From Paenibacillus sp. FSL W8-0186 (GTDB taxonomy: Bacteria > Bacillota > Bacilli > Paenibacillales > Paenibacillaceae), in NCBI RefSeq assembly GCF_037969765.1, contig NZ_CP150207.1:1412001-1476000 (forward strand): a stretch of 64,000 bases of DNA. Reading direction: 5' to 3'. Shown here piece by piece: positions 35,133 to 48,595 of this stretch. Below the pieces are notes generated by a model that saw only the letters and a list, made by a program, of their open reading frames with translations, did no database searches and was not told the origin of the DNA. Every line of letters begins with the position of its first letter. Position 1 is the first letter of the stretch. Position numbers and translations under genes: made by a program.

Positions 35133-35168
35133 CTATAATCCAAACTATTGAATTGGAGGGTTCTGTTT

Positions 35169-36953
35169 ATGGCTAGAAAACGGTTGAAGTCTTTTGCCAC
35201 AATGCTTCTTGCTATGGCCGTCATCACAGCTTCGGCTATTGTTTCCGGCGGGCAAGCATCCGCGGCAGCTACGCCTGTAAAGGGATTTTATGTGAACGGT
35301 ACAACGCTTTATGATGCGACGGGCAAGCCATTTGTCATGAGAGGGGTCAATCATGCCCACACCTGGTTCAAGAATGATTTGGCAGCAGCTATACCCGCGA
35401 TCGCCGCGACAGGCGCGAACACCGTAAGAATCGTACTGTCGGATGGGGGACAGTGGACGAGGGACGATGTCGCTTCGGTCCAGAATATCATCGCCTTATG
35501 TGATCAATATAATCTCATTACGATGCTCGAAGTACATGATGCGACAGGCTCGGATTCTGCCTCTACGCTGAATCGTGCCGTTGACTATTGGATCAGCATT
35601 AAAGATGCGTTAATCGGAAAAGAGGATCGCGTCATCGTCAACATTGCCAATGAATGGTTCGGGTCATGGAGTTCGGATGGCTGGGCAAGCGGTTATCAGG
35701 CGGCGATCCCGGCTCTCCGCAATGCTGGCATTAAGAACACGCTCGTTGTGGATGCGGCAGGCTGGGGACAATATCCGAACTCGATCTTTGAAAAAGGATT
35801 GGCTGTTGCGAGCACCGATCCGCTGAAAAATATGATCTTCTCTATCCATATGTACGAATATGCAGGCGGCGACGCAGCAACGGTAAAGAGCAACATTGAT
35901 AATGCCCTGGCCCTAAATATTCCCGTTATCATTGGCGAATTTGGACATAAGCATTCCAGCGGCGATGTGGATGAGGCGACGATCCTGAGCTATACCCAGC
36001 AGAAAGGCGTTGGCTGGCTGGCCTGGTCCTGGTATGGCAACGGCGGAGGCGTCGAATATTTGGATCTGGCAACGGGCCCGGCGGGAAGCTTGACGGACTG
36101 GGGTAAAACCGTAGTGAACAGCACCTATGGCACACTCGCCACATCTCAGCTTAGCGGAATTTACACAACGCCTGGTTATCAGCCGGTTCCGGATAACGGG
36201 AATACTCCGGTGCCAACAGTACCGGCCGCTCCAACAGGCTTAACAGCTGCGGCAGGGAACGGACAAGCCGTATTGAGCTGGAATGCTTCCTCCGGGGCGA
36301 CAAGTTATGCGGTCAAGAGAGCAGCAGTCAGCGGCGGGCCTTACACGACGATTGCCAGCAACGTTGCAGCTACCAGCTATACGGATACGGGATTGACGAA
36401 CGGCAATACGTATTATTATGTGGTGAGCGCCGCGAATAGCGCCGGAACAAGCTCCCATTCCACGCAGGCCAGCGTAACTCCCCAAGGTACACCAGTGCCT
36501 TCCAGCTCCCTCGTTTTACAATATCGGGCTGGGGATACAAACTCCAGCGACAATCAAATCAAACCGTATTTTAACATCAAAAATAACGGAACGAGCCCTG
36601 TCAATCTAAGCAGCCTGAAGCTTCGCTATTACTTTACGAAAGACGGCAATCAAACGATGAACGCCTGGATCGATTGGGCTCAGGTGGGTTCAAGCAACAT
36701 TCAAACGGCCTTCGGCAGCGTTTCTGGCACGAATGCAGACACCTACGTCGAGCTCAGCTTCACGGCCGCAGCAGGCTCTATTGCTCCCGGCGGGCAGACC
36801 GGGGACATCCAACTGCGGATCTCCAAAGCCGACTGGTCCAACTTTAATGAGAACAACGACTACTCCTTCGATGCCACCAAGACTTCATATACCGATTGGA
36901 ACAAAGTAACATTATACAACAACGGAGATCTGGTCTGGGGAATCGAGCCTTAA
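35169..36953 (+). CDS. Secreted GH5 beta-mannanase with FN3 and CBM3
   Basis: A 594-residue extracellular enzyme cutting beta-1,4-mannan. The signal peptide covers about residues 1-33 (SGGQASA-AA). The GH5 catalytic barrel (~35-325, subfamily-8-like) has acid/base Glu162 in NIANEWFG and nucleophile Glu257 in IIGEFGH, with WLAWSWYGNGGG near the end. A fibronectin type III domain follows (~352-438, APTGLTAAAGNGQAVLSWNA) and a CBM3 cellulose-binding module (~448-594, LQYRAGDTNSSDNQIKPYF). ATG 35169 has GGAGG 11 bases upstream. It is expressed alone behind a cre-like box; no mannan transporter is adjacent. Confidence 0.92.
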   Translation: MARKRLKSFATMLLAMAVITASAIVSGGQASAAATPVKGFYVNGTTLYDATGKPFVMRGVNHAHTWFKNDLAAAIPAIAATGANTVRIVLSDGGQWTRDDVASVQNIIALCDQYNLITMLEVHDATGSDSASTLNRAVDYWISIKDALIGKEDRVIVNIANEWFGSWSSDGWASGYQAAIPALRNAGIKNTLVVDAAGWGQYPNSIFEKGLAVASTDPLKNMIFSIHMYEYAGGDAATVKSNIDNALALNIPVIIGEFGHKHSSGDVDEATILSYTQQKGVGWLAWSWYGNGGGVEYLDLATGPAGSLTDWGKTVVNSTYGTLATSQLSGIYTTPGYQPVPDNGNTPVPTVPAAPTGLTAAAGNGQAVLSWNASSGATSYAVKRAAVSGGPYTTIASNVAATSYTDTGLTNGNTYYYVVSAANSAGTSSHSTQASVTPQGTPVPSSSLVLQYRAGDTNSSDNQIKPYFNIKNNGTSPVNLSSLKLRYYFTKDGNQTMNAWIDWAQVGSSNIQTAFGSVSGTNADTYVELSFTAAAGSIAPGGQTGDIQLRISKADWSNFNENNDYSFDATKTSYTDWNKVTLYNNGDLVWGIEP

Positions 36954-36972
36954 TTGGGTTTGACAAGCTGTT

Positions 36973-37001
36973 TTTACAACAATTCATAGTTGCTGTATAA
37001 T
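36973..37001 (+). promoter_or_regulatory. Promoter of the GntR gene
   Basis: TTTACA (36973-36978), 17-base spacer, TATAAT (36996-37001). Confidence 0.75.
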
Positions 37002-37010
37002 GGAAGTACG

Positions 37011-37024
37011 GACAACGTGACATC
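37011..37024. promoter_or_regulatory. GntR operator candidate 1
   Basis: GACAACGTGACATC just downstream of the -10 box. Its reverse complement fits the pattern GATGTCACGNNGTC seen at 37951-37964 before the PTS operon. Confidence 0.55.
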
Positions 37025-37045
37025 TTAATCAGTTAGGAGGACACA

Positions 37046-37798
37046 ATGGGTAATTTAGCTCAGTATGAACTGGAAAAAAACAGTCCAATTCCTTTATACT
37101 TTCAACTTAAAGAAGATATGATCCATAAAATTAGAAACGAAGAATACAAAGTAAATGACAGCTTGCCTCCCGAAACACAATTAATGAAGATGTATGGAGT
37201 CAGCAGAACTACGGTCAGACAGGCTATTGATTTGCTGGTTAGCGAAGGGTATCTGGAAAAGCGAAGAGGGGTAGGAACCTTTGTCACCAAGCAGCAGCTA
37301 AACCAGTGGGATCTCGCGGAATTGCGAAGCTTCAATGAGGAAGCCAGTCGGCAAGGACTGAGCGCCAGAACGGAACTGTTAAGCAGCGAGCGCGTTATGG
37401 CGAATGATGCCTTGAAGGGCATTTTCGAAAAGGAGTCGGCTTGGTTCTACAAGTTGGAAAGGCTGCGATTTATTGAGAACGAGCCCTCCGTCCTGGTGAC
37501 AACTTATGTTCCGGCGGATATAACACCTGGGCTGGAACGGTTTAATTTTTCGGAAGTTTCCTTGTTTGCAACACTAAGAGAGCATTATTCTCTTAAAATC
37601 AGTTTTGCGAACAAGACCTTTCGGGCGATCAATGCCAGCGCCGAGGATGCCGCGATATTGAAGGTGGATCCAGGATTTGCCATACAATTGGTCGAGACGG
37701 TCACTTATGATGACAAAGATAGGCCCATTGAATATTCTGTTTCCAGAGACAGAGGCGATCTTAACCGGTTCAAGGTACGCTTGAGATATAAGGAATGA
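37046..37798 (+). CDS. GntR family (HutC/UTRA) regulator of the PTS operon
   Basis: A 250-residue repressor-type regulator. The N-terminal winged helix (IPLYFQLKEDMIHKI, LPPETQLMKMYGVSRTTVRQAI, GYLEKRRGVGTFV) is classic GntR, and the C-terminal ~160 residues form a UTRA ligand domain (WFYKLERLRFIENEPSVLVTTYV). UTRA proteins usually sense a sugar phosphate or related metabolite. AGGAGG precedes the ATG. A shared motif in its own promoter and before the PTS operon suggests it controls both. Confidence 0.92.
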   Translation: MGNLAQYELEKNSPIPLYFQLKEDMIHKIRNEEYKVNDSLPPETQLMKMYGVSRTTVRQAIDLLVSEGYLEKRRGVGTFVTKQQLNQWDLAELRSFNEEASRQGLSARTELLSSERVMANDALKGIFEKESAWFYKLERLRFIENEPSVLVTTYVPADITPGLERFNFSEVSLFATLREHYSLKISFANKTFRAINASAEDAAILKVDPGFAIQLVETVTYDDKDRPIEYSVSRDRGDLNRFKVRLRYKE

Positions 37799-37832
37799 AC
37801 GGCTATTAGTGAATGAATATAATGAAAATGAT

Positions 37833-37890
37833 AAACCTGTCGCTTAATTTTTCCGTCAAGACGTGAAATTAGGGCGATGGGTTTATTTTT
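37833..37890 (+). terminator. Long imperfect terminator
   Basis: AAACC-GTCGC-TAATTT arms pair with AAATTA-GGCGA-GGGTTT around a 15-base loop, followed by ATTTTT. It separates the GntR gene from the operon promoter. Confidence 0.7.
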
Positions 37891-37904
37891 GTCCTTTTTT
37901 TCTA

Positions 37905-37941
37905 TGAAAGCGCTTGACAAAGAAAAAAAACAGTGTAATCA
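37905..37941 (+). promoter_or_regulatory. Operon promoter overlapped by cre-like box
   Basis: TTGACA (37914-37919) with a poor -10 (TAATCA) 16 bases on. TGAAAGCGCTTGAC (37905-37918) has a perfect left cre half-site and overlaps the -35, pointing to CcpA repression. Confidence 0.5.
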
Positions 37942-37950
37942 TAACAGTAG

Positions 37951-37972
37951 GATGTCACGACGTCACGATGTC
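37951..37972. promoter_or_regulatory. GntR operator candidate 2
   Basis: GATGTCACGACGTCACGATG contains two 8-bp direct repeats (TGTCACGA, CGTCACGA) and a third half (TGTC). It shares GATGTCACGNNGTC with 37011-37024 and lies between promoter and first operon gene. Confidence 0.6.
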
Positions 37973-38004
37973 TTATCAGCTGCATAATAAGGAGGAATTG
38001 ACAA

Positions 38005-38796
38005 ATGGCAGGCGACTGGTTGAATTTGGCGGGGAAGGTCATCATCGTTACAGGGGGAAGCTCGGGTATTGGGGCTAAAATAGTGCAAAATCTCAGTGAG
38101 AATGGGGCACAGGTCGTAATCGCTGATATTTTTGGTTCCGCTTACAATAACGTTGATTTTATCCAATGCGATATCACAAACAAGCTGCAGGTAGAAGAAA
38201 TGATAGACAAGGTAACGGAGAAATATTCCCGGATTGATGGCTTGGTTAACAATGCCGGAGTCAACCGGCCCAAATTGTTAGTGGATTATTATTACGGCGA
38301 CAAGGATCACGAGTTTAACGAGGAAGATTTTGATTTTATGTTCAACGTTAATGTCAAAGGCGCCTTTTTCTGTGCCCAGGCGGCCGCAAGAATAATGATC
38401 AAGCAAAAAAGCGGGGTTATTGTAAACATTAGCTCCGAAGCCGGTATGGAAGGCTCCAAAGGGCAAAGCATTTATTCCGCAACCAAGGGGGCTCTGAATT
38501 CCTTCACACTATCGTGGGCGAAGGAGCTCGGTCGTTTCAATCTTCGAGTGATCGGCGTCTCTCCCGGGATCAATGAGCCTACGCCGATGGGCAATCCTGA
38601 GCATGTAAAGGCTTTGGCCTATACAAGAGGTATAGAGTCCGGAGATGTTTCCGGAGAATATATGAAAATGATCCCTTTGGGTAGACGAGGAAAGTTGGAA
38701 GAAATTTCGGATCTGGTTACGTATCTGTTATCTGATCGATCATCGTATATTTCAGGCACGATTGTAAATGTTACTGGCGGTAAGTCTAGAGGCTAA
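38005..38796 (+). CDS. SDR oxidoreductase, sorbitol-6-phosphate dehydrogenase-like
   Basis: A 263-residue short-chain dehydrogenase, first gene of the operon. The cofactor loop TGGSSGIG, DITN, NNAG and catalytic Ser and YSATK are intact. The Asp-containing end of strand 2 (VVIADIFG) favours NAD. A long insertion with acidic residues (VDYYYGDKDHEFNEEDFDF) and the GVSPGINEPTPMGNPEH loop resemble SorD, the glucitol-6-phosphate 2-dehydrogenase of sorbose operons. It probably oxidises the polyol phosphate delivered by the PTS genes that follow. AAGGAGG lies before the ATG. Confidence 0.85.
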   Translation: MAGDWLNLAGKVIIVTGGSSGIGAKIVQNLSENGAQVVIADIFGSAYNNVDFIQCDITNKLQVEEMIDKVTEKYSRIDGLVNNAGVNRPKLLVDYYYGDKDHEFNEEDFDFMFNVNVKGAFFCAQAAARIMIKQKSGVIVNISSEAGMEGSKGQSIYSATKGALNSFTLSWAKELGRFNLRVIGVSPGINEPTPMGNPEHVKALAYTRGIESGDVSGEYMKMIPLGRRGKLEEISDLVTYLLSDRSSYISGTIVNVTGGKSRG

Positions 38797-38811
38797 GACA
38801 GGAGGATAGCT

Positions 38812-39231
38812 ATGAACAGCAAACCGTGGATTATCATCATCACGCACGGGACATTCGGTGAGGAATTAAAGAGAAGCGCGGAACTTATTATCGGAGAATT
38901 AGAGGATGTGTATTGCTTTTCTTTATTGGCAGGAATGGAAAGCAAAGCGCTGATTGAACATATTGGTTCCCAGTTAACCGATGCCCCGCGGGATTCCATT
39001 TTCCTGACCGATCTGTACGGAGGAACTCCATCAAATATCGGTGCCTATTTTGCAAAAAAGGATGGATACTCCGTCATTTGCGGAGTTAATTTGCCGATGC
39101 TGATCGAGGCGCAAACGCGTAGGTCGTTGGGGGAGTGGGAAGGCATCGAAGACAAAATTATTGAATTCGGGGCTGAAGGCATACGCAATATCACCAAAAT
39201 CATTAAAGAAAGGAAGGGATCTGCATGTTAA
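38812..39231 (+). CDS. PTS mannose-family IIA component
   Basis: A 139-residue cytosolic phospho-carrier. It accepts phosphate from HPr on His12 in the motif IITHGTFGEELKRSAE and passes it to IIB. DLYGGTPSNIGAYF and NLPMLIEAQ are typical of EIIA-Man. AGGAGG precedes the ATG; it starts 15 bases after the dehydrogenase gene and overlaps IIB by 7 bases. With IIB, IIC and IID it forms a complete four-subunit permease of the mannose/fructose/sorbose family. Confidence 0.95.
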   Translation: MNSKPWIIIITHGTFGEELKRSAELIIGELEDVYCFSLLAGMESKALIEHIGSQLTDAPRDSIFLTDLYGGTPSNIGAYFAKKDGYSVICGVNLPMLIEAQTRRSLGEWEGIEDKIIEFGAEGIRNITKIIKERKGSAC

Positions 39232-39719
39232 ACGGAATCAAACTGGTGAGAGTCGACTTTAGATTGATTCACGGACAGGTTGTCACGAAATGGAGCAATA
39301 CCGTCACGGCCAAAACGATCATCGTTGTTAACGACGAGCTTTCCGAAGACGAGTTTATGGCGGATATTTACGTGATGGCGGCCCCTCCCGGCATCAAGGT
39401 GCAAGTGCTATCCATCGCTTCTTTCGTCGAGCAGGCTAACGCCGGGCAGTATGACAGCGGCAGTATTCTCGTACTGTTCAAGAACATTGAAGATGTACGG
39501 AATGCGGTGGAGAGGGGCATTGTGTTTGCCGAGGTACAGATTGGCGGACTTGGCGCAGCCGGGAATCGGACATCCGTAGTTAAAGGAATCTCCATTGACC
39601 GGGATGATGCAGACAATCTGATCTGCATGAGAGATCGGGGAGTTGAGGTTTACTTCCAGGTGACCCCGGAGGAAACCAAGCTATCGCTGGATAAAGCATT
39701 GAAAAAATTGGGGGGATAA
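39225..39719 (+). CDS. PTS mannose/sorbose-family IIB component
   Basis: A 164-residue IIB with phospho-His16 in VRVDFRLIHGQVVTKW. The conserved IIVVNDELSEDEFMADIYVMAAPPGIKV block (quoted by motif) is also present. It transfers phosphate from IIA to the incoming sugar at the IIC-IID channel. Overlaps IIA; AAGGAAGGG lies inside the IIA end. The sequence is closer in pattern to sorbose/N-acetylgalactosamine-type IIB than to the fused ManX form. Confidence 0.95.
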   Translation: MLNGIKLVRVDFRLIHGQVVTKWSNTVTAKTIIVVNDELSEDEFMADIYVMAAPPGIKVQVLSIASFVEQANAGQYDSGSILVLFKNIEDVRNAVERGIVFAEVQIGGLGAAGNRTSVVKGISIDRDDADNLICMRDRGVEVYFQVTPEETKLSLDKALKKLGG

Positions 39720-39722
39720 GCG

Positions 39723-40475
39723 ATGGAATTGCTGGTCGTAAGTATATTTGCGGGTTTGTGGTATTGGATTTGTAAAACGGATATCGGTTATGCAATCACC
39801 CATGCGATACGGCAGCCATTGTTTGCCGCTCTCCCCATCGGGCTAATCATGGGCGATGTCAAGCAGGCGATGATTATCGGGGCCGCTGTGCAAATTCTCT
39901 ATATTGGCCTGGTTGCCGCGGGCTCCAATCTTCCCGCCGATGACTGTCTCGCAGGACTTATCGCTATTCCCATTGCGATCGGTTCCGGGCTTACACCGGC
40001 GCTGGCAGTTGCCATAGCCGTGCCCGTAGGTGTCATGGGCGTATTCGTCGATCAATTGCGCAAGACGGTCAATGTCATATTCGTTCATATGGCCGACCGG
40101 TATGCGGAGGAAGGAAATACCCGAAAGATTGTGCTTGCTTCCGTCGTTTATCCTACCGCTTTAAGCTTTTTCTTCCGGTTTCCGATTCCGTTTTTCGCTA
40201 TTCTCTATGGCGCGGATGCCGTTAACTCCTTCATGAACAGCATTCCGGAATGGCTGGTTCACGGTTTCAGTGTGGCCGGTGGTCTGCTGCCAGCTCTCGG
40301 TTTCGCTTTGACGATGTTCGTCATTGGGAAAAAAGAACTTTTTCCGTGGTTCGTCATCGGTTACTTCTTAGTTCAATTCAGCGGAATTCCTGTGATCGGA
40401 GCAGCTATTTTCGGCTTATGCGCAGTTCTTCTAATCACTTATTACAACAATAATAAGAAGAATTTGGAGGTGTGA
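39723..40475 (+). CDS. PTS mannose/sorbose-family IIC component
   Basis: A 250-residue polytopic permease subunit with about seven hydrophobic spans. Family markers: QPLFAALPIGLIMGDVKQAMIIGA and ILYIGLVAAGSNLPADDCLAG near the N terminus. It forms the substrate channel with IID. The start is 4 bases after IIB with GGGGGG upstream; the stop overlaps the IID start by one base (TGATG). Confidence 0.94.
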   Translation: MELLVVSIFAGLWYWICKTDIGYAITHAIRQPLFAALPIGLIMGDVKQAMIIGAAVQILYIGLVAAGSNLPADDCLAGLIAIPIAIGSGLTPALAVAIAVPVGVMGVFVDQLRKTVNVIFVHMADRYAEEGNTRKIVLASVVYPTALSFFFRFPIPFFAILYGADAVNSFMNSIPEWLVHGFSVAGGLLPALGFALTMFVIGKKELFPWFVIGYFLVQFSGIPVIGAAIFGLCAVLLITYYNNNKKNLEV

Positions 40476-41332
40476 TGAAAATGACGGAAACGCAGAAAAC
40501 AGCAGAAGCCGGCACGGAAACCGGTAAATTGATTACCGAGAAGGACATCCGCCGCAACTGGCTGACCTACTATATGGTAGCGGAGATGGGCATTTCGTAC
40601 GAACGGCTTCAGGCGCTCGGCTTTACAACGGCCATGATCCCGGTTCTGAAGAAGCTGTATTCCGATCCGGAGGATATGAAGGAAGCCCTGAAGCGGCATC
40701 TCGTTTTCTATAATACGGAGGCGGTATTCGGGTCGCCGGTCAATGGCATCGTCATCGCCATGGAGGAACAGAAGGCCAAGGGAGAGCCGATCACCGACAA
40801 ATCGATCACCGGGATGAAAACAGGGCTGATGGGGCCGCTTGCGGGGATCGGCGATTCCATTGACTGGGCTACGCTGAAGCCGATCATCTTCGCGCTTGCG
40901 GCGACGTTGTCCGCGACCGGGAGCATCATCGGTCCCTTCGTCCTCCTGCTGCTGCCGCTGATTCAAATCATGATCGGCCTCAGATTGTCCGTGTACGGTT
41001 ATCGCACTGGCAAGGCGTCCATCCGGGAGCTGCTGCACTCCGGGCGGATCAAGGATCTGATCGTCGGGGCAAGCACACTCGGATTGTTCATGATGGGGGC
41101 ATTGTCGTCCACCTATGTCAAGCTCAGTACTCCGCTGCAGTTCGATTTCGGCAACGGCAACGAGCCGTTTGTGGTGCAAAACATTCTCGACGGGATTATC
41201 CCCGGCCTGTTGCCTCTTTTGGCCGTACTCGGCCTGTACTGGTGGCTTAATAAGAAGAGCCAGAATTTCACCGTCATTATGCTTATCATCATTGCTGTAA
41301 GCATCATTGGAGCCTTTACCGGTATTTTTTAA
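40475..41332 (+). CDS. PTS mannose/sorbose-family IID component
   Basis: A 285-residue IID subunit: a cytosolic N-terminal part (EKDIRRNWLTYYMVAEMGISYERLQALGF) and a C-terminal membrane part with the GPLAGIGDSIDWATLKPI loop (family GPLAGIGD motif) and a last helix FTVIMLIIIAVSIIGAF. GGAGG is 4 bases before ATG 40475 and 10 before ATG 40481, so the exact start is uncertain. Completes the transporter. A 63-base gap follows before the MtlD-like gene. Confidence 0.94.
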   Translation: MKMTETQKTAEAGTETGKLITEKDIRRNWLTYYMVAEMGISYERLQALGFTTAMIPVLKKLYSDPEDMKEALKRHLVFYNTEAVFGSPVNGIVIAMEEQKAKGEPITDKSITGMKTGLMGPLAGIGDSIDWATLKPIIFALAATLSATGSIIGPFVLLLLPLIQIMIGLRLSVYGYRTGKASIRELLHSGRIKDLIVGASTLGLFMMGALSSTYVKLSTPLQFDFGNGNEPFVVQNILDGIIPGLLPLLAVLGLYWWLNKKSQNFTVIMLIIIAVSIIGAFTGIF

Positions 41333-41395
41333 GAGAAGCCCTTGGACGCCAGGAAGAATACAACAATAAATTCATAACAAAAAGAGGTGGTACCT

Positions 41396-42553
41396 TTGCA
41401 AGCGGTGCATTTTGGAGCCGGCAGCATCGGCAGAGGTTTTATCGGGGATTTGCTGCATGATTCGGGATACGAAATCACCTTTGTCGATGTAGATCCCGCG
41501 ATCATTGCTCAGATTAACCGGGACAAGGCTTACGATTTATATCTAATTGAACAAAATTATCTCAGAAAAACGATTGATCATGTGAGCGCCGTCTCTTCCA
41601 TTACCCAGGAGCAAGAGACCGTTGCGGCATTGGCGAATGCGGATATCATTACAACCTCGGTATGGGCCGACAATCTGCCGCGAATCGCGCCCGTTTTGCT
41701 GAAAGGATTACGGGCCAGGCAGGAGGCAGGGAAAAGCAAGGTGAATATCCTTGCCTGTGAGAACGCCATGTTCAACTCCGATATTTTGAAGAAAAGCATA
41801 CTGGAGCTGGAGGGAAGTCTATCGGAGAAAGAATTGGAAGAGATTGCTTCATTTCCGAATACAGCTGTCGACCGCATGGTGCTGGAGGGTAAGCAGGAAG
41901 GCAAGGCGGTCATTAACATCGGGCAAGATTACGAACTGGTCATCGAACAAAACAAGCTGGCCGAACCCGGCATGAAGCCGATTCGTAATGCCGTGTATAC
42001 CGATAATCTGCAAAAATTTTTAGAGCGGAAATTGTACATCATTAATTGCGGCCATGCCTGGGCCGGCTATATCGGCCATGTGTACGGCTATGAGATTATC
42101 CAGGATGTATTTCATCATGACACCTTGGTACAGGAAGTGCGGGAGACAATGCTGGAGTCGGCGAGCATGCTGGAGCGGAAGTACGGCTTCTCTAACCAGG
42201 AACTGGTTGAATATGTAGACTTTGCGATTGCCCGCTTTCAAACGCCAGGCATCGTCGATACGATCAACCGGGTGTGCAGGTCGCCGATTCGCAAGCTGCA
42301 AGCTGACGATCGGTTGGTGGCGCCCTGCCTGCAATGTGAAGAATACGGGCTTAAGAACAGCCGATTGCAGCAAGGCATCGCCGCCGCGTTTCTCTTCCGC
42401 AACGATGCGGACAGCCAATGCGAAGAATTGCGGTTGTATGTAGAGGAGCACGGAATCGGCGCAGCGATTACGCATTATACCGGGATTCCGGCGGCGACCC
42501 AATTGCATGAGGGCATTTTGAAGCATTATGAAGAATTGTACCGGACAGCATGA
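41396..42553 (+). CDS. Mannitol-1-phosphate 5-dehydrogenase-like enzyme
   Basis: A 385-residue polyol-phosphate dehydrogenase of the long-chain mannitol dehydrogenase family. Rossmann start MQAVHFGAGSIGRGFIGDLL; catalytic-lysine helix region NCGHAWAGYIGHVYGYEII; full family length. The TTG start follows GAGGTGG by 6 bases (an upstream GTG lies within that site). It would reduce or oxidise a hexitol phosphate at C5/C2. A second polyol-phosphate dehydrogenase in the same operon as the SorD-like enzyme suggests successive or alternative oxidations of an unusual polyol. No mtlA-type transporter is nearby. Confidence 0.88.
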   Translation: MQAVHFGAGSIGRGFIGDLLHDSGYEITFVDVDPAIIAQINRDKAYDLYLIEQNYLRKTIDHVSAVSSITQEQETVAALANADIITTSVWADNLPRIAPVLLKGLRARQEAGKSKVNILACENAMFNSDILKKSILELEGSLSEKELEEIASFPNTAVDRMVLEGKQEGKAVINIGQDYELVIEQNKLAEPGMKPIRNAVYTDNLQKFLERKLYIINCGHAWAGYIGHVYGYEIIQDVFHHDTLVQEVRETMLESASMLERKYGFSNQELVEYVDFAIARFQTPGIVDTINRVCRSPIRKLQADDRLVAPCLQCEEYGLKNSRLQQGIAAAFLFRNDADSQCEELRLYVEEHGIGAAITHYTGIPAATQLHEGILKHYEELYRTA

Positions 42554-42574
42554 AAAGGGAGGGGATGAGCACTG

Positions 42575-43219
42575 ATGGAATTTACGAACCAGGCGGGCAT
42601 CGCCGTAGTGACAGCCATGATTGAAGCCGTTTGCTCTAACCGGGATTATTTGAGCCGCATCGATGCCTTAGTGGGGGATGGCGATCATGGAATCAACATG
42701 AGCAAGGGCTTCTCCATGGCAGGCGAGGAGCTCGGCAAACTCGATGCCGATATGAGCGAAGGTTTGTTGACGCTCAGCAAAGTGCTGGTCAGCAAAATCG
42801 GCGGCTCGATGGGCCCCTTGTACGGCAGCTTTTTCAGGGGGATGGCCACGGCTTCGAAAGACGAACCCGTCATAAATACTACGGTCATGCTGAATATGCT
42901 GCAGAAGGCTTACGGTCGGATCGCCATGTTGACGAACGCGCAGGTGGGTGACAAAACCTTGATCGATGTACTGAACCCAGCGGTGAAGGCTTACGAGGAA
43001 GCTGCCGCTGAAGGCGGAAATATGGAGGTCTGCCTGAGTCATATGCTTGATGCTGCGAAGCGGGGACTCGAGTCCACCAAGGAGATGGCAGCCAAAGTCG
43101 GCCGCGGTAGCCGTCTCGGAGAACGCGCAATCGGGCATCAGGACGCCGGAGCGACTTCCTGCTATATCATTCTGGAAGCCTTGGCCGAGGCTTCTCTCCG
43201 GCTGGTCAAAGCCGATTAA
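42575..43219 (+). CDS. dhaL: Dihydroxyacetone kinase subunit DhaL-like
   Basis: A 214-residue ADP/ATP-binding subunit of two-part ketose kinases. Mg-nucleotide motif IDALVGDGDHGINMSKGF, then SKIGGSMGPLYGSFF and GDKTLIDVLNPA, and RLGERAIGHQDAGATS at the end, as in DhaL. It precedes dhaK, the reverse of the usual order, and no DhaM phospho-donor gene is in the operon, so phosphate might come from ATP directly or from another PTS protein. Related DhaK/L-type kinases act on erythrulose and other short ketoses. GGGAGGGG precedes the ATG. Confidence 0.88.
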   Translation: MEFTNQAGIAVVTAMIEAVCSNRDYLSRIDALVGDGDHGINMSKGFSMAGEELGKLDADMSEGLLTLSKVLVSKIGGSMGPLYGSFFRGMATASKDEPVINTTVMLNMLQKAYGRIAMLTNAQVGDKTLIDVLNPAVKAYEEAAAEGGNMEVCLSHMLDAAKRGLESTKEMAAKVGRGSRLGERAIGHQDAGATSCYIILEALAEASLRLVKAD

Positions 43220-43231
43220 GGAGGGTGTGAA

Positions 43232-44227
43232 ATGCAGCGTTTTGTAAACAACCCCGATTTCATCGTAGACGATATGCTGAAAGGGTATGTCAAAGCTCAT
43301 GGGGATACGATTCAACTGTCGGAGCGCAATGATCGTGTGGTGAAGACGATTCAGGCCCCGATAGAGGGCAAGGTTGGCATCGTGACGGGCGGCGGCAGCG
43401 GCCATGAACCGGCATTCCTCGGTTATGTCGGCGAGGGACTGGTGGATGCGGCCGCCATCGGCGAAGTTTTCGCTTCACCGCCGGCCCAGTCGTTTTTGGA
43501 TGCAATCGTCGAAGCCGATTCCGGCCAAGGGGTGGCCTGCCTGTTCGGCAATTACGCGGGCGACAACATGAATGTCAAAATGGCGGTACAGCTTGCGGAG
43601 GACGAGGGAATTCCCGTTAAATACGTGACTGCGACGGACGATATCGCCTCCTCCCCGCCCGAGACAAGAGAGAAGCGTCATGGCATTGCCGGCGGCCTGT
43701 TCATGTGGAAGGCCGGAGGTGCGAGGGCGGCGATGGGCGGCTCCCTGGATGAAGTGATCGCTGCCGCGCAGAAGGCCGTCGACCATACCCGGAGCATTTG
43801 CGTCGGACTCAGCTCCTGCACGATCCCGGCAGCGGGCTCTCCCAACTTTACCATCGAAGAAGGAATGATGGAATTCGGGATCGGCCACCATGGCGAGCCG
43901 GGAATCCGGGTGGAGCCGCTGAAGACGGCGGATGAAATCGCCGCCGAAATGACCGGCGCCATCCTGCAGGATTTTGGCTTCAGCAAATCGGAGGAGCTGG
44001 CTGTCATGCTGTCCGGTTTGGGCGCGACCCCACTGATGGAATTGTATGTAGTGTATGACAAGGTGGCGGAAATCCTGACGGGACAGGGCCACCGGATCGA
44101 TCGCACCTTGATTGGGAACTTCGTGACTTCCCTGGATATGAACGGCTTGTCGCTAACGATTGTACGGCTGGATGAGGAACTGAAGGAGCTTTTGGATTAT
44201 CCGGGGCAATGCCCTGCCTTCAAATAA
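43232..44227 (+). CDS. dhaK: Dihydroxyacetone kinase subunit DhaK-like
   Basis: A 331-residue substrate-binding subunit. The substrate-linking histidine is in FGIGHHGEPGIRVE, the glycine-rich pocket in IVTGGGSGHEPAFLGYVGEG, and DDIASSPP and RHGIAGGLFMWKAGGA are typical of DhaK. Such subunits bind the ketone covalently via His before phosphorylation by DhaL. AAGGAGGG precedes the ATG, 12 bases after dhaL. In this operon it may phosphorylate dihydroxyacetone or another short ketose released by the aldolase-type step. Confidence 0.9.
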   Translation: MQRFVNNPDFIVDDMLKGYVKAHGDTIQLSERNDRVVKTIQAPIEGKVGIVTGGGSGHEPAFLGYVGEGLVDAAAIGEVFASPPAQSFLDAIVEADSGQGVACLFGNYAGDNMNVKMAVQLAEDEGIPVKYVTATDDIASSPPETREKRHGIAGGLFMWKAGGARAAMGGSLDEVIAAAQKAVDHTRSICVGLSSCTIPAAGSPNFTIEEGMMEFGIGHHGEPGIRVEPLKTADEIAAEMTGAILQDFGFSKSEELAVMLSGLGATPLMELYVVYDKVAEILTGQGHRIDRTLIGNFVTSLDMNGLSLTIVRLDEELKELLDYPGQCPAFK

Positions 44228-44252
44228 AGAATCATGGAGAGGAGACAGAAAG

Positions 44253-44888
44253 ATGAAGCTGCAGTTGGCTTTGGATGAGCTGAGGCTGGAGGAAGCGCTG
44301 GAATTTGCCGAGAAGGTCAAAGACTATATCGACATTATCGAGATCGGAACTCCCTTTGTCATCGCCGAGGGCATGAATGCGGTTAAAAGATTCAAGGAGC
44401 GCTTTCCGGACAAGGAAATTTTGTCTGATGAAAAAATTATGGATGGTGGCTTTTTTGAATCGAAGCTCGCTTTTGACGCTGGAGCCGAATACGTGACAGC
44501 GCTTGGGGTTACCGATATATTGACCATCAAAGCCTGCCTGAAGGCCGCAAACGAGTTCGGCAAGCAATTGGTGGTCGATATGATATGCGTGGACGATTTG
44601 CCGGCCAAGATCGATGAGCTGGAGCAGTTGGGCGTCCATGTGCTGGCCGTTCATACGGGGGCTGACCAGCAGGCGGCCGGCAGACAGCCGATTGATGATC
44701 TGAAGGTGATGAAGGCGCATGCCAAGTCGGCCAAGATCGCTGTTGCCGGGGGTATTAACAGCCGCACGATCGCTCAATACGTTGCGCTGGAGCCCGATAT
44801 CATTATCGTGGGCACCGGGATTACCCATGCAGAGGATCCGGTCAAGGAAGCCCGGTTGATTAAGGAAGCGATAGAACGGAGAGCCTGA
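44253..44888 (+). CDS. 3-hexulose-6-phosphate synthase-like protein
   Basis: A 211-residue OMP-decarboxylase-superfamily barrel, close in pattern to HxlA: MKLQLALDELRLEEALEFAE, DIIEIGTPFVIAEGMNAV, the catalytic DxKxMD as SDEKIMDGG (commonly DLKIMDAG), VVDMICVDDL, VHTGADQQAAG and IAVAGGI. HPS joins formaldehyde and ribulose-5-phosphate to arabino-3-hexulose-6-phosphate, or runs in reverse. The Leu-to-Glu and Ala-to-Gly changes around the catalytic loop may mean a changed substrate. It is followed by its usual isomerase partner. GGAGAGGAG precedes the ATG. Confidence 0.85.
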   Translation: MKLQLALDELRLEEALEFAEKVKDYIDIIEIGTPFVIAEGMNAVKRFKERFPDKEILSDEKIMDGGFFESKLAFDAGAEYVTALGVTDILTIKACLKAANEFGKQLVVDMICVDDLPAKIDELEQLGVHVLAVHTGADQQAAGRQPIDDLKVMKAHAKSAKIAVAGGINSRTIAQYVALEPDIIIVGTGITHAEDPVKEARLIKEAIERRA

Positions 44889-44904
44889 AGGAGGAGAGCA
44901 ATCA

Positions 44905-45468
44905 ATGAAACCTTGCAGTAATTTGCTGGCGATATTGGAAGAGCTTTCAGAGAATGCGAAGCGGGTGAATGGGGAAGAGGTCGACACGGTGAAAAAATTG
45001 ATTTCTGAAGCCAAGCGGGTATTTGTGGCAGGGGCCGGCCGTTCCGGATTCGCGGCCAGAGGATTCGCCAATCGCCTGATGCATTTGGGCTATAGCTCGT
45101 ATTTTGTCGGAGAACCTACTACACCGTCCATTCAGCAAGGCGATCTCCTGATTATCGGCTCCGGCTCTGGCGAAACCGCCAGTTTGAAGGCGATGGCGCA
45201 AAAGGCAGTCGAACAGGGAGCAAAGCTGGCTACGCTGACGATTTTTCCTTCGAATACGATTGGTTCAATGGCTGCAGCCTGCATTAAAATTCCCGGCATC
45301 ACCTCTAAGGTGGAGGAAGAAGGGGATAACGCGAAGTCCATCCAGACAAAGGGATCTTCCTTTGAACAGTTGAGCTGGTTGATTTATGACAGCATCATCA
45401 TTGATTTGAAGCGGGAGACTGGGCAGACCGACGCTGATATGTTTGCCCGGCATGCCAATCTGGAGTAG
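44905..45468 (+). CDS. 6-phospho-3-hexuloisomerase-like SIS protein
   Basis: A 187-residue SIS-domain isomerase like HxlB, which converts arabino-3-hexulose-6-phosphate to fructose-6-phosphate. Motifs: VFVAGAGRSGFAARGFANRL, HLGYSSYFVGEPTTPSI, LLIIGSGSGET, and the C-terminal SSFEQLSWLIYDSIIIDL. GAAGGAGGAG lies before the ATG, 17 bases after the synthase. Last gene of the operon. With HPS it would link a C6 keto-phosphate to glycolysis through fructose-6-phosphate, or form a formaldehyde-handling ribulose monophosphate bypass. Confidence 0.9.
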   Translation: MKPCSNLLAILEELSENAKRVNGEEVDTVKKLISEAKRVFVAGAGRSGFAARGFANRLMHLGYSSYFVGEPTTPSIQQGDLLIIGSGSGETASLKAMAQKAVEQGAKLATLTIFPSNTIGSMAAACIKIPGITSKVEEEGDNAKSIQTKGSSFEQLSWLIYDSIIIDLKRETGQTDADMFARHANLE

Positions 45469-45515
45469 GCAAACGAGACTCACTTTCGGACTTTGGAGCG
45501 AATAAGCTACCTATA

Positions 45516-45553
45516 CACCGTCAGGGGTAAACCCTGGCGGGTTTCATTTTTTA
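45516..45553 (+). terminator. Rho-independent terminator of the PTS operon
   Basis: ACCGTCAGGG pairs with CCCTGGCGGGT (one wobble, one bulge), followed by TTCATTTTTT. Confidence 0.85.
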
Positions 45554-45623
45554 CGCCGCAGTCGGGCCTATACTTCTCGTTTAGAGTGAGAGTTTACAGA
45601 TTTATTTTCATAGGAAACAAAAT

Positions 45624-45711: not shown

Positions 45712-46716
45712 ATGAAACCTACAATTCGGGATGTTGCCAAGATGGCAGGAGTATCCATCAGCACGGTATCACGTGTTATGAACGCCCCGGATACAGTGAT
45801 TGAGAGTAAACGGAGGCGGGTGTTGGATGCGATCGAGGAGCTGCAGTATCAGCCGAACTCTTTTGCACGGGGCCTGATTTACAAGAAGTCATTTACGCTG
45901 GGCCTGCTGATCCCTGATATCGAGAACATTTACTATTCCGGCATCATTCGGGGAGTGCAGGATGCCTGCATCAGGCTTGGCTACAGTCTTATGATTTGCA
46001 ATACGGACCGCGACAAGGATCGTCTGCTGTCCTACATCGACGCGTTTCATGAGAAACAGGTGGATGGTATCGTTTTTGCTAGTGACATTATTTTTCCAGA
46101 GTATTACGAGAAGCTGGCCGGCAGCCGAATCCCGTTTGTTCTTGTCTCCTCCCACTCCTATGAATATGACATTCCGAGCGTGGAGATTGATGATAAGGCG
46201 GCGGCATATGATGCGGTCAAATACTTAATTGGGCTTGGCCACACTGAAATCGGCATGATTGGCTTCAACCATGAGAATTCCATAGCCGGACCGCCACGTT
46301 TCGAAGGTTTTTTGCAAGCGCTTACGGAGTGCGGACTGGAGCATAACGTGGAGAAGGTCAAATATGCGAACCACCGTTTTGAGCATGCGTATGAGGCAGC
46401 CGGCGAATTGTTTGCGGAGCACCCGGGCATCACCGCGGTTTTCTGCGTAGCCGACGAGTTCGCTATGGGGACAATATCTTATTTGAACGATCGGAATATC
46501 AGCGTTCCGGAGCAAGTATCCGTTATAGGCTTCGATAACCTGCGGGTAGCGGGCATGTATATTCCAAAGCTGACGACGATTGCGCAGCCGATCTACGAGT
46601 TGGGTTATCGCGCGGCAGAGAAGGTGCATGAACTGGTCACGACAGGAAGCATCGACATTTTACGAGAAAAAATGGCCCATCGGCTCATTGTACGGGATTC
46701 CTGCCGAGAAAAGTAA
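45712..46716 (+). CDS. LacI family repressor of the alpha-glucoside genes
   Basis: A 334-residue LacI/GalR protein. The DNA-binding head is PTIRDVAKMAGVSISTVSRVMN with hinge NSFARGLIYKKSFTLGLLIP; the periplasmic-binding-like core includes FGVADEFAMGT-type motif (FCVADEFAMGTISYL) and SVIGFDNLRVAGMYIPKLTT. It should dissociate from DNA when a maltose-type sugar binds. AAGGAAG precedes the ATG. Matching palindromes overlap its own promoter and lie right after its stop before the transporter genes, so it probably represses both. Confidence 0.93.
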   Translation: MKPTIRDVAKMAGVSISTVSRVMNAPDTVIESKRRRVLDAIEELQYQPNSFARGLIYKKSFTLGLLIPDIENIYYSGIIRGVQDACIRLGYSLMICNTDRDKDRLLSYIDAFHEKQVDGIVFASDIIFPEYYEKLAGSRIPFVLVSSHSYEYDIPSVEIDDKAAAYDAVKYLIGLGHTEIGMIGFNHENSIAGPPRFEGFLQALTECGLEHNVEKVKYANHRFEHAYEAAGELFAEHPGITAVFCVADEFAMGTISYLNDRNISVPEQVSVIGFDNLRVAGMYIPKLTTIAQPIYELGYRAAEKVHELVTTGSIDILREKMAHRLIVRDSCREK

Positions 46717-46736
46717 GATTTACTTATTTTTCTGTC

Positions 46737-46760
46737 GATTCTGAAAAGCTTTTCAGAATC
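46737..46760. promoter_or_regulatory. LacI-family operator O2
   Basis: A perfect 24-bp palindrome centred on GAAAAGCTTTTC, between the repressor gene and the transporter operon. It shares the O1 core. It could also form a hairpin, but no T-run follows. Confidence 0.75.
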
Positions 46761-46984
46761 GGGAAATCGTAAAAATTTGAATGAGGAATCAGCAAAATGT
46801 AAACGTATGCGACCTTGTAGATCATGATATGCTTAGCCTAAGAAACGAAGATTGAAGCTCTTGAAGGGGGTGATCCTGGAGAAGAATGATCCGTTTAGCG
46901 GGCAAAAAGCGAGGAAGAAGCAAGAATGCAAGACCCTGCAACTAGGGACGCAAGATTTACTAAACTAAAGGGGATGTTCATAAG

Positions 46985-48391
46985 ATGAAGAACGCTGTAG
47001 GACGAAAAATGTCATTGCTTCTCGTACTATTGCTGTCATTTACGATGGTGCTGAGCGCCTGTGGCGGGGGCGGCAATACGCCGAAAAGTGAGCCGCCAGC
47101 GAATACAGGGGGCAACAACCAGGGAGCAGCAAACGAAGGCAGCAGCAACGAGAATCTGTCGCCTCTGGAGCTTGCGCTGAAGGGCGAATACAAAGGAACG
47201 AAAGTAACGATGTTCGGTCCGTTCGTAGATGCTGACCAAGTGAAATTCGAAAGCAGCATTAAAGAATTCGAGGAGAAAACCGGGATCGACATTCAATACG
47301 AAGGCTCCAAAGAATTCGAAGCGACGATCAATATCCGCGTAGACGGCGGAAATGCTCCGGACATCGCTGACTTCCCGCAGCCGGGTCTGCTGGCTTCTAT
47401 CGCAAAAACGGGGAAAGTCATCGACTTGACCAACATTCTTGACCAGGACAAATTAAAAGCGAACTACAACCAAAGCTGGCTGGACATGGGAACGATGGAC
47501 GGCAAAGACGGCAAAATTCTGGCGGGGATCTGGAACCGCAGTAACGTGAAGAGCTTGGTATGGTATCCGAAGAAGCAGTTCGAAGAAGCAGGATACAAAA
47601 TTCCTGAGACATGGGATGAAATGATGGCCTTGACCGAGCAAATCGCCAAAGACGGCGACCCTGCTTGGAGTATCGGTATCGAGTCCGGTGCAGCCACAGG
47701 CTGGACAGCTACGGACTGGGTGGAGGACATCATGCTCCGCACTACAACTCCAGAGAATTACGACAAGTGGGTAAACGGCGAGCTTCCGTTCACATCTCCT
47801 GAAGTGAAGCGTGCTGTAGAAATTATGTCTGACATCTGGATGAATAAAGATTATGTATACGGCGGCACGAAATCGATCGTAACTACGGCATTCGGTGATG
47901 CTCCGGCTCCAATGTTCACGGACCCTCCAAAAGCCTGGTTCCACCGTCAAGGCAACTTCATCACCAGCTTCTTCCCAGAAACGGCTAAAGTGGATGAAGA
48001 TTACGACTGGTTCTACCTGCCATCTATTGATGAAGAATACGGCAAGCCAGTACTTGTAGCGGGCGATATTTACGCGATGTTCAACGATCGTCCGGAGGTT
48101 CGCGCGGTCATGGAATTCTTCACGACAGGCGAATCCATCAAAACTTGGGTTCAATCCGGCGGCGTTATCGCGCCTATGAACGACGCATCTCTCGACTGGT
48201 ACAGCTCCGAATCCGACCGCCGCATGGCGAAGCTCGTACAGGATGCATCCACGCTCCGCTTCGACGGATCTGACTTGATGCCTGGTAAAGTTGGCGCAGG
48301 TACGTTCTGGAAGGGGATGACCGACTACGTGAGCGGTACGGCTTCCTTGGATGACGCATTGAAGCAAATTCAGTCCGGCTGGGATAACTAA
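46985..48391 (+). CDS. ABC transporter substrate-binding lipoprotein (alpha-glucoside type)
   Basis: A 468-residue extracellular solute-binding protein, family 1. The lipobox is VLSAC (Cys at residue 24), followed by a Gly/Asn/Ser-rich tether. The mature part has the usual cluster VTMFGPFVDADQVKFESSIKEFEEKTGIDI (by motif), DIADFPQPG, and Trp-rich pocket sequences (PAWSIGIESGAATGWTATDW). It delivers an alpha-glucoside to the two permeases downstream, as in AglE/ThuE-like systems. AAAGGGG precedes the ATG. A strong hairpin after the gene would lower permease expression relative to this protein. Confidence 0.92.
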   Translation: MKNAVGRKMSLLLVLLLSFTMVLSACGGGGNTPKSEPPANTGGNNQGAANEGSSNENLSPLELALKGEYKGTKVTMFGPFVDADQVKFESSIKEFEEKTGIDIQYEGSKEFEATINIRVDGGNAPDIADFPQPGLLASIAKTGKVIDLTNILDQDKLKANYNQSWLDMGTMDGKDGKILAGIWNRSNVKSLVWYPKKQFEEAGYKIPETWDEMMALTEQIAKDGDPAWSIGIESGAATGWTATDWVEDIMLRTTTPENYDKWVNGELPFTSPEVKRAVEIMSDIWMNKDYVYGGTKSIVTTAFGDAPAPMFTDPPKAWFHRQGNFITSFFPETAKVDEDYDWFYLPSIDEEYGKPVLVAGDIYAMFNDRPEVRAVMEFFTTGESIKTWVQSGGVIAPMNDASLDWYSSESDRRMAKLVQDASTLRFDGSDLMPGKVGAGTFWKGMTDYVSGTASLDDALKQIQSGWDN

Positions 48392-48431
48392 TCTGCAATT
48401 ATCGTCATTTTTCACACGTTGTTAACTGGTA

Positions 48432-48476
48432 AAGAGGAGCACTGTGGTTTAATTGCTAGCTGCTCCTCTTTTCTTG
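48432..48476 (+). terminator. Intra-operon hairpin / attenuator
   Basis: AAGAGGAGCA pairs perfectly with TGCTCCTCTT (19-base loop) and is followed by TTCTTGTCTT. It is imperfect as a terminator and probably gives partial read-through into the permease genes. Confidence 0.7.
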
Positions 48477-48509
48477 TCTTATCAACTTTTGATCACGAAG
48501 TAATTCAAG

Positions 48510-48578
48510 GCTTACGAAGACAAGTTTTGCTTCGCAAAACAAGCGTATGCTTACGAAGATAGTTTTGCTTCGCAAAAC
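48510..48578. repeat. Two tandem hairpin repeats
   Basis: GCTTACGAAGA followed by AGTTTTGCTTCGCAAAAC occurs at 48510-48540 and again at 48549-48578 (39-base period, two small differences). Each copy holds the hairpin GTTTTGC-TTC-GCAAAAC. They lie between binding protein and permease genes, ending 10 bases before the permease ribosome site. Confidence 0.85.
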
Positions 48579-48595
48579 TTATAGGAGGAGCTATT

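Follow-up and report, generated by a model that had tools for sequence, protein, structure and literature searches.

The 64,000-nt stretch of the Paenibacillus sp. FSL W8-0186 genome analysed here (the window, to which block coordinates refer; source genome 5.66 Mb, one contig) carries a GntR/UTRA regulator gene and ten structural genes, tightly spaced and all on the + strand (37046-45468), as determined from reading frames and family scans. The structural genes encode, in this order, a short-chain dehydrogenase/reductase (SDR), the IIA, IIB, IIC and IID components of a phosphotransferase system (PTS), an MtlD-like polyol-phosphate dehydrogenase (here MtlD'), DhaL, DhaK, 3-hexulose-6-phosphate synthase (HPS) and 6-phospho-3-hexuloisomerase (PHI; Table 1). 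The operon is real, recurrent, made of known families and undescribed as far as searched: no description of this gene combination was found in the open-access literature searched, most subscription journals being outside that scope. Most likely it is a polyol degradation route with HPS and PHI in an unusual role, and probably it is a GntR-controlled catabolic set for a hexitol other than mannitol; a matching sugar, reached via the SDR, is perhaps a further substrate.

Intergenic gaps from the SDR to the PHI gene range from -7 to about 60 bases (the MtlD' reading frame opens at GTG 41387, and TTG 41396 agrees with homologues), and the regulator and the ten genes form one gene block that is very likely one unit. 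The grouping goes beyond chance, because these genes are found together again in different arrangements, also outside this phylum, and because the whole block is missing from a same-species genome. An earlier note on this DNA had proposed a single operon, which is supported, ending in a single terminator, of which there stands a terminator-like hairpin after PHI, a consensus match supported by its place. The families that it had named (SDR, IIA-IIB-IIC-IID, MtlD-like, DhaL, DhaK, HPS and PHI) were all confirmed by family scans; it had counted nine genes where ten structural genes were found, and its list lacked the regulator lying inside its own coordinates. Its statement that no standard pathway uses all these families agrees with the open-access literature searched, where none was found.

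Table 1. Coordinates of the block genes, putative regulatory sites and strain-variable segment in the window.
Feature	Position	Strand	Basis
GntR/UTRA transcription regulator, 250 aa	37046..37798	+	PF00392 and PF07702
SDR, sorbitol-6-phosphate dehydrogenase subfamily, 263 aa	38005..38796	+	NF004817, 385 bits (cut-off 304)
PTS EIIA, mannose type, 139 aa	38812..39231	+	PF03610
PTS EIIB, mannose/sorbose type, 164 aa	39225..39719	+	PF03830
PTS EIIC, mannose/sorbose type, 250 aa	39723..40475	+	PF03609
PTS EIID, mannose type, 285 aa	40475..41332	+	PF03613
MtlD' polyol-phosphate dehydrogenase	41396..42553	+	PF01232 and PF08125; tree
DhaL-like kinase subunit, 214 aa	42575..43219	+	TIGR02365, 170.6 bits (cut-off 138.3)
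DhaK-like subunit, 331 aa	43232..44227	+	Scores under the cut-off for both NF011049 (432 bits versus 492) and TIGR02363 (352 bits versus 406)
HPS (3-hexulose-6-phosphate synthase), 211 aa	44253..44888	+	TIGR03128, 275 bits (cut-off 200)
PHI (6-phospho-3-hexuloisomerase), 187 aa	44905..45468	+	TIGR03127, 223.9 bits (cut-off 160); SIS domain
Promoter-like site of regulator gene, TTTACA-17-TATAAT	36973..37001	+	11/12 consensus matches
Putative operator GATGTCACG before GntR	37016..37024	-	Motif count and cassette comparison
Promoter-like site of operon, TTGACA-17-AATCAT, before SDR	37914..37942	+	10/12 consensus matches
Putative operator, GATGTCACG then GACGTCACG, before SDR	37951..37967	+	Motif count and cassette comparison
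Terminator-like hairpin after PHI, 9 pairs then T-rich	45518..45540	+	Consensus scan
Segment absent from same-species genome G295	36955..45622		blastn of window against G295

MtlD' and the HPS-PHI pair

As judged from sequence, MtlD' is a clade of its own, paralogous to the mannitol enzyme. In a tree of 39 sequences, 24 MtlD' proteins (that of the window, those of related loci and that of L181, a locus cut off by its contig end) were split from 15 canonical MtlD proteins of host genomes with a branch support of 100/100. The tree omits mannitol dehydrogenases of the long kind (about 490-540 aa), a pair of L036 proteins scoring 82-129 bits, L182 (which duplicates the L053 protein), L219 and L221, and the canonical MtlD of hosts without a located gene (for example, G299, G302, G303 and G307). 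K215, N220 and H223, common to nearly all MtlD rows, are kept in MtlD'; position 184 is fixed between the groups as a W-to-L exchange (24/24 MtlD' versus 15/15 canonical), and three more positions distinguish them at a level of at least 92%. The window protein fell below the cut-off of all nine listed NCBIfam models for mannitol-1-phosphate 5-dehydrogenase (best 331.8 versus 356; canonical rows not scanned), and the source genome has a canonical mannitol locus with mtlA at 2,693,320 and MtlD at 2,689,211. Plain mannitol was rejected as the substrate, MtlD' being a separate clade and canonical mannitol genes being also present.

On these grounds it is unlikely that the operon serves ordinary mannitol or glucitol use, with MtlD' and the SDR forming fructose-6-phosphate and PHI and HPS diverting part of it to ribulose-5-phosphate and formaldehyde for pentose and one-carbon supply, as in archaea. 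The SDR does fall in the sorbitol-6-phosphate dehydrogenase subfamily, ten relatives have a mannitol-type PTS, and the L. casei hxlAB genes are read in this direction, from fructose-6-phosphate to ribulose-5-phosphate, in an excerpt of PMC7716342. Against this stand the coexisting canonical mannitol genes and the separate MtlD' clade with its fixed W-to-L exchange. Most hosts should, in addition, have other pentose-phosphate routes.

HPS and PHI both exceed the curated cut-offs of the ribulose monophosphate (RuMP) pair, and the HPS residues D8, E30, D59, K61, D64, D109 and H134, which have a catalytic role, are conserved to at least 97% in both HPS groups compared (38 operon-group rows and 37 canonical-type rows). 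The solved structure closest to the operon HPS is 3f4w, a putative hexulose-6-phosphate synthase (285 bits), presumably from Salmonella. The operon HPS belongs to a group met mostly in sugar or polyol loci, and its regulatory context, like that of the operon PHI, is a GntR/UTRA regulator with PTS genes; HxlR is found not there but at a second HPS-PHI pair of the source genome, at 5.452 Mb (L158, 5446000-5458000), as an adjacent protein (PF01638, 130 bits). Formaldehyde defence was rejected as the operon's role in view of this separate pair. Even as a detoxification tied to a sugar operon, with HPS and PHI running in the classical direction, it is highly improbable: it would suit the RuMP family scores of both proteins, and it is opposed by the HxlR-linked pair and by the GntR/UTRA regulator and PTS genes of the operon. 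Ordinary mannitol use and ordinary formaldehyde defence thus both fit poorly, because MtlD' is split from the canonical clade and because mannitol and HxlR-hxlAB loci lie elsewhere in the source genome.

In a quick PHI tree with several long branches, in which 10 named loci of L075-L112 and L158 were kept, 23 of the 26 PHIs of MtlD' loci fell into one group (support 95); nine PHIs of aldose-type loci formed another (97), and 10 canonical-type PHIs stood elsewhere. At least two PHIs accompany HPS at 8/94 loci (L041, L042, L049, L058, L066, L067, L070 and L154) and 0/38 canonical-type loci; L068, with a second PHI by tblastn, is outside this count, and no PHI match was obtained in L060, L062, L152 and L156. 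Multiple PHIs would be expected if isomerases of two specificities were needed; the window operon has one.

Core set and exchanged parts in related loci

Across 26 MtlD' loci, MtlD', HPS and PHI stay together, and the SDR and mostly DhaLK travel with a mannose-type PTS. The PTS is of the mannose type in 15 loci, of the mannitol type in 10 and lacking in one (L058). SDR genes occur in 15/15 mannose-type versus 0/10 mannitol-type loci, and DhaK plus DhaL in 13/15 versus 1/10 (14/26 overall). Twenty-five loci have HPS and PHI close to MtlD' (15/15 mannose type, 9/10 mannitol type, and L058); in the sole locus without them the contig ends 352 bases past MtlD'. This link is partly built in, because most loci were found via HPS, and L219 and L221, found via MtlD' instead, both carry HPS and PHI.

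The closest solved relatives of the operon DhaL are PTS-dependent DhaL subunits, and its GDGDHG motif is present in alignment; DhaK, whose best matches to solved structures are likewise PTS-dependent subunits, keeps the His of the HGEPG motif. No match to the DhaM model TIGR02364 was found in the source genome, and the 12 PDB matches of the operon EIIA include named mannose or sugar PTS IIA proteins, none of them named DhaM. Because DhaL and DhaK resemble PTS-dependent subunits in a genome without a DhaM-family match, their phosphoryl donor would be ATP or perhaps the operon EIIA. The only other DAK2-domain match in that genome (3517975-3518469) lies in a 588-aa FakA-type protein with FakA-like Pfam domains, and is no DhaL. 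L058 has DhaK without DhaL.

Of 22 MtlD' loci compared for dihydroxyacetone partners, 13 have DhaK, 12 have DhaL, and one each has GldA and transketolase; the figures for 36 other loci were two (DhaK), one (DhaL), one (GldA), two (transketolase, both fragments) and three (TalC). None of DhaK, DhaL, GldA, transketolase and TalC occurs anywhere in the stretches compared of 38 canonical-type HPS control loci (L075-L112 minus L083, plus L158). DhaK is encoded somewhere in 23/27 genomes tested, and, where the MtlD' operon lacks DhaLK, elsewhere in the genome of 8/9 tested hosts (exception G311; the hosts of L083 and L114 not among them). Transketolase copies in Enterobacterales were rejected as proof of linkage, several belonging to other gene groups and only that of E. 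coli ET350 counting as complete; the count in K. spallanzanii stops at contig ends.

A second, different DhaK-DhaL pair stands beside the first kind in L145 (11216-12902), L213 and L214; in Anaerostipes, a PTS of the galactitol type and a gene of the class II aldolase family accompany the second pair. It is very unlikely that the operon degrades a polyol that is branched or yields formaldehyde (such as hamamelitol or apiitol), with HPS releasing or recapturing formaldehyde and DhaLK phosphorylating a tetrulose such as erythrulose. DhaK-like tetrulose kinases are known, and Anaerostipes combines the same kind of DhaK with the class II aldolase-family gene and the second pair; no branched-sugar enzyme was noticed in the loci read, and the relatives with a mannitol-type PTS or linked isomerases indicate straight hexoses.

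In E. coli ET350 (L114, NZ_CP100966.1 4382483-4401397), a locus near tRNA-Leu and an integrase gene encodes HPr, IIB, a mannitol-type IICB, IIA, MtlD', HPS, PHI, a regulator, glycerol dehydrogenase (GldA), pfkA and transketolase. A cluster of ptsG-like, GPI-family, hxlB and hxlA genes, seen for instance in E. coli 118UI, occurs in E. coli, Citrobacter, Klebsiella, one further genome (L155) and on Salmonella plasmids (L113, L155, L191, L192, L045 and L051; five Salmonella records matched, two of them examined). The HPS-PHI stretch of L044 was matched by 133/5426 E. coli genomes, of which 118UI and ET350 were examined. The GPI-family protein (PF06560) accompanies a glucose-type PTS in L045 and L113, a phosphomannose-isomerase protein is found in L083 (Pfam), a glucosamine-isomerase-family protein (PF01182) in L061, a fructose-6-phosphate-aldolase-family gene in L154, and a weaker ManA-like gene in L146 (76.9 bits versus a cut-off of 116.2). 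A NagB-like gene 33-39% identical to that of L061 directly precedes hxlA-hxlB in eleven staphylococcal loci (L077, L079, L081, L084, L087, L088, L094, L099, L104, L108 and L112).

Candidate route and competing explanations

HPS and PHI most likely receive a 2-ketohexose-6-phosphate, because the upstream families (dehydrogenases, aldose-phosphate isomerases and the glucosamine-isomerase family) normally yield such ketoses, and presumably one other than fructose-6-phosphate, because dedicated paralogues would otherwise be hard to explain. We infer the substrate, the direction of the reactions, the formaldehyde intermediate and the role of DhaLK as follows. The PTS would import and phosphorylate a hexitol, and MtlD' would oxidise the polyol phosphate to the 2-ketohexose-6-phosphate. 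PHI would then move the carbonyl from C2 to C3, wiping out the C3 stereocentre, and HPS, as a retro-aldolase, would cut C1 from C2 to give a pentulose-5-phosphate and formaldehyde. We put the probability of this sequence at about 0.4. The two products might be rejoined by HPS and PHI to fructose-6-phosphate; alternatively, transketolase might convert formaldehyde and xylulose-5-phosphate to glyceraldehyde-3-phosphate and dihydroxyacetone, the latter being phosphorylated by DhaLK or removed by GldA. As a guess, the best fit is the C3-epimer (allo/altro) series: gluco/manno compounds are the usual substrates of the upstream families, and a difference at C3 is precisely what PHI chemistry abolishes.

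Several points weigh against this route. No enzyme of the MtlD' clade is known to have an assigned activity, and the analysis found none; free formaldehyde from sugar is costly, and nature has a one-step alternative, AlsE for allulose-6-phosphate. AlsE was above cut-off in 7/20 host genomes but not in the source genome, a distribution judged not decisive. The two HPS groups differ at one class-specific position only, so HPS residues were dropped as a substrate clue. The link between MtlD' and HPS/PHI is looser in L083, where the MtlD' genes lie on the opposite strand several kb away, and in L064, where a divergent DeoR gene intervenes. DhaLK is outside the core set, because it is absent from 2/15 mannose-type and 9/10 mannitol-type loci. 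Only L114 has a complete transketolase gene, 8.4 kb from HPS, and L045 and L057 have fragments at contig ends. The control loci are not independent, because 20/38 are from Staphylococcus, and they were set by rank (45-52% identity) and not by tree. Among the isomerase-linked loci, the ManA-like protein of L150 is barely at the Pfam cut-off and that of L147 has no Pfam match, and some HPS loci have ribokinase-, RpiB- or RPE-like genes, which would suit pentoses.

The last of these observations bears on a pentitol pathway, in which MtlD' and the SDR would oxidise two epimeric pentitol-5-phosphates to ribulose-5-phosphate, a substrate of HPS, and HPS and PHI would add outside formaldehyde. This is quite unlikely: it leaves unexplained the hexose-phosphate isomerases beside related HPS/PHI genes, the operon is without a formaldehyde source, and the genome already has the HxlR-linked pair.

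There is a small chance that the dehydrogenases oxidise C3 or C4 of the hexitol phosphate, giving D-arabino-3-hexulose-6-phosphate (or an epimer) for conversion by PHI to fructose-6-phosphate, with HPS as a side valve. This intermediate is common to PHI and HPS, and PHI lies near MtlD' in 25/26 loci. Known MtlD-type enzymes, by contrast, oxidise the carbon adjoining the terminal CH2OH; HPS would be dispensable, yet is present in all 25 uncut loci, and the isomerase-linked relatives begin with a 2-ketose. A 3-hexulose phosphate made directly by the dehydrogenases had been the suggestion of the earlier note; conversion by PHI of a 2-ketose to a 3-ketose for cleavage by HPS was judged likelier, because related HPS/PHI pairs adjoin hexose-phosphate isomerases, which make 2-ketoses. 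The same note's PTS for an unusual hexitol or ketose holds to the extent that the MtlD' clade and the separate mannitol locus support uptake of something besides ordinary mannitol. A short ketose made by HPS for DhaLK, which it had also envisaged, is hard to reconcile with HPS chemistry, in which the fragment set free is formaldehyde; dihydroxyacetone could come from this via transketolase.

The proposed retro-aldol route may be extended, though doubtfully, to a general module for 'wrong' hexose stereoisomers, in which the C3 and C2 stereocentres are erased with no dedicated epimerase and EIIA-Man replaces DhaM on DhaL. Members of a single rare series (possibly allo/altro), polyols as well as aldoses, would then reach central metabolism via pentulose-5-phosphate and formaldehyde, and EIIA-Man would couple sugar uptake to the disposal of formaldehyde-derived dihydroxyacetone. 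The EIIA part was suggested because DhaLK so largely follows the mannose-type PTS (13/15 versus 1/10 loci) and no DhaM was found in the source genome.

If the route is true, a textbook formaldehyde-fixing pair has a second, reverse-running job in the sugar breakdown of non-methylotrophs. This would account for the PTS loci with hxlAB-like genes in E. coli, Salmonella, Enterococcus and gut Firmicutes, and would define an internal formaldehyde source and a new polyol-phosphate dehydrogenase clade. Given an operator-like motif, two natural strains that differ in the block and relatives with an exchanged PTS, simple growth tests can be used to find the substrate.

Distribution, putative regulatory sites and known systems

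The block is strain-variable, present or absent as a unit. DNA of the same-species genome G295 aligned with the window on both sides of the block, as far as 36954 and then from 45623 on (blastn against stretch L220, matches over 150 bases counted), with about 400 bases in between in G295; that genome has no close MtlD' relative, its sole MtlD match (36%) being canonical. A recent gain by the host species was not borne out, since P. ihumii (L033) and another Paenibacillus genome (L157) carry the block beside similar neighbours; for the same reason gain and loss are not separable, and the absence from G295 may be a loss. By eye, the neighbours in the window are an endoglucanase-like secreted protein upstream (35148-36953) and a LacI-like regulator with ABC sugar transporter-like genes downstream (45712-49678), which adjoin each other in the strain without the block. 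G1118 has the full GntR-to-PHI set among different genes (DNA 73-75% identical), although its contig also carries, at a distance of about 17 kb, a gene related to the LacI gene of the window.

The operon HPS was present at >90% identity in 2/296 sampled genomes of the order, the source included (next best 49%), and is 97% identical to one assigned to Paenibacillus lentus; MtlD' was found at an identity of at least 68% in 6/40 genomes of the genus. Hosts of MtlD' loci include Paenibacillus, Propionispora, Oceanobacillus, Enterococcus, Tetragenococcus, Vagococcus, Anaerostipes, Lactiplantibacillus, Absicoccus, Izhakiella, Zophobihabitans and Enterobacter, a scatter that suggests transfer between phyla. 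Plasmids (13 records) and phages (11 records) were rejected as carriers of MtlD', every record being <60% identical.

Promoter-like and terminator-like sites are consensus matches only, the region scan giving 21 of the former (9.3 expected) and 4 of the latter (8.8 expected); the support of the hairpin is its place and not the count, because chance expectation exceeds the sites found. The 9-mer GATGTCACG occurs three times in the whole window (0.36 expected; 2/100 shuffles reached three) and sits immediately downstream of both promoter-like sites. Before GntR it is exact in all four Paenibacillus cassettes compared (window, L033, L034 and L157). In front of SDR, the window and L033 have the exact motif and L157 has it with one mismatch; in L034 it was not found at one-mismatch stringency.

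Among known systems, the HxlA-HxlB pair of the RuMP pathway shares its families and conserved residues with the operon, which differs in its regulator and polyol PTS setting. The mannitol operon (MtlA-MtlF-MtlD) has the MtlD family in common, and ten relatives have its PTS type, whereas the window has a separate MtlD' clade, HPS and PHI downstream and a mannose-type PTS. The L-sorbose operon (sor genes) likewise combines a mannose-type IIA-IIB-IIC-IID with a SorD-like SDR; the window has MtlD' in place of a SorE-type reductase, plus DhaLK, HPS and PHI. Compared with the DhaKLM kinase, both subunit motifs and the resemblance to PTS-dependent subunits are shared, but DhaLK lies inside a polyol operon in a genome without a DhaM-family match. 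The D-arabitol operon of B. methanolicus, in the portion of PMC6685057 consulted, also joins a PTS to a polyol-phosphate dehydrogenase, the PTS being of the galactitol type, and a figure legend there places hps and phi in the ribulose monophosphate cycle. The ptsG-like/GPI/hxlBA cluster of E. coli and Salmonella, for which no functional description was found in the open-access literature searched, resembles the window in that PHI and a related HPS are part of a PTS cluster, and differs in pairing an aldose-type PTS with an isomerase where the window has a polyol PTS with dehydrogenases.

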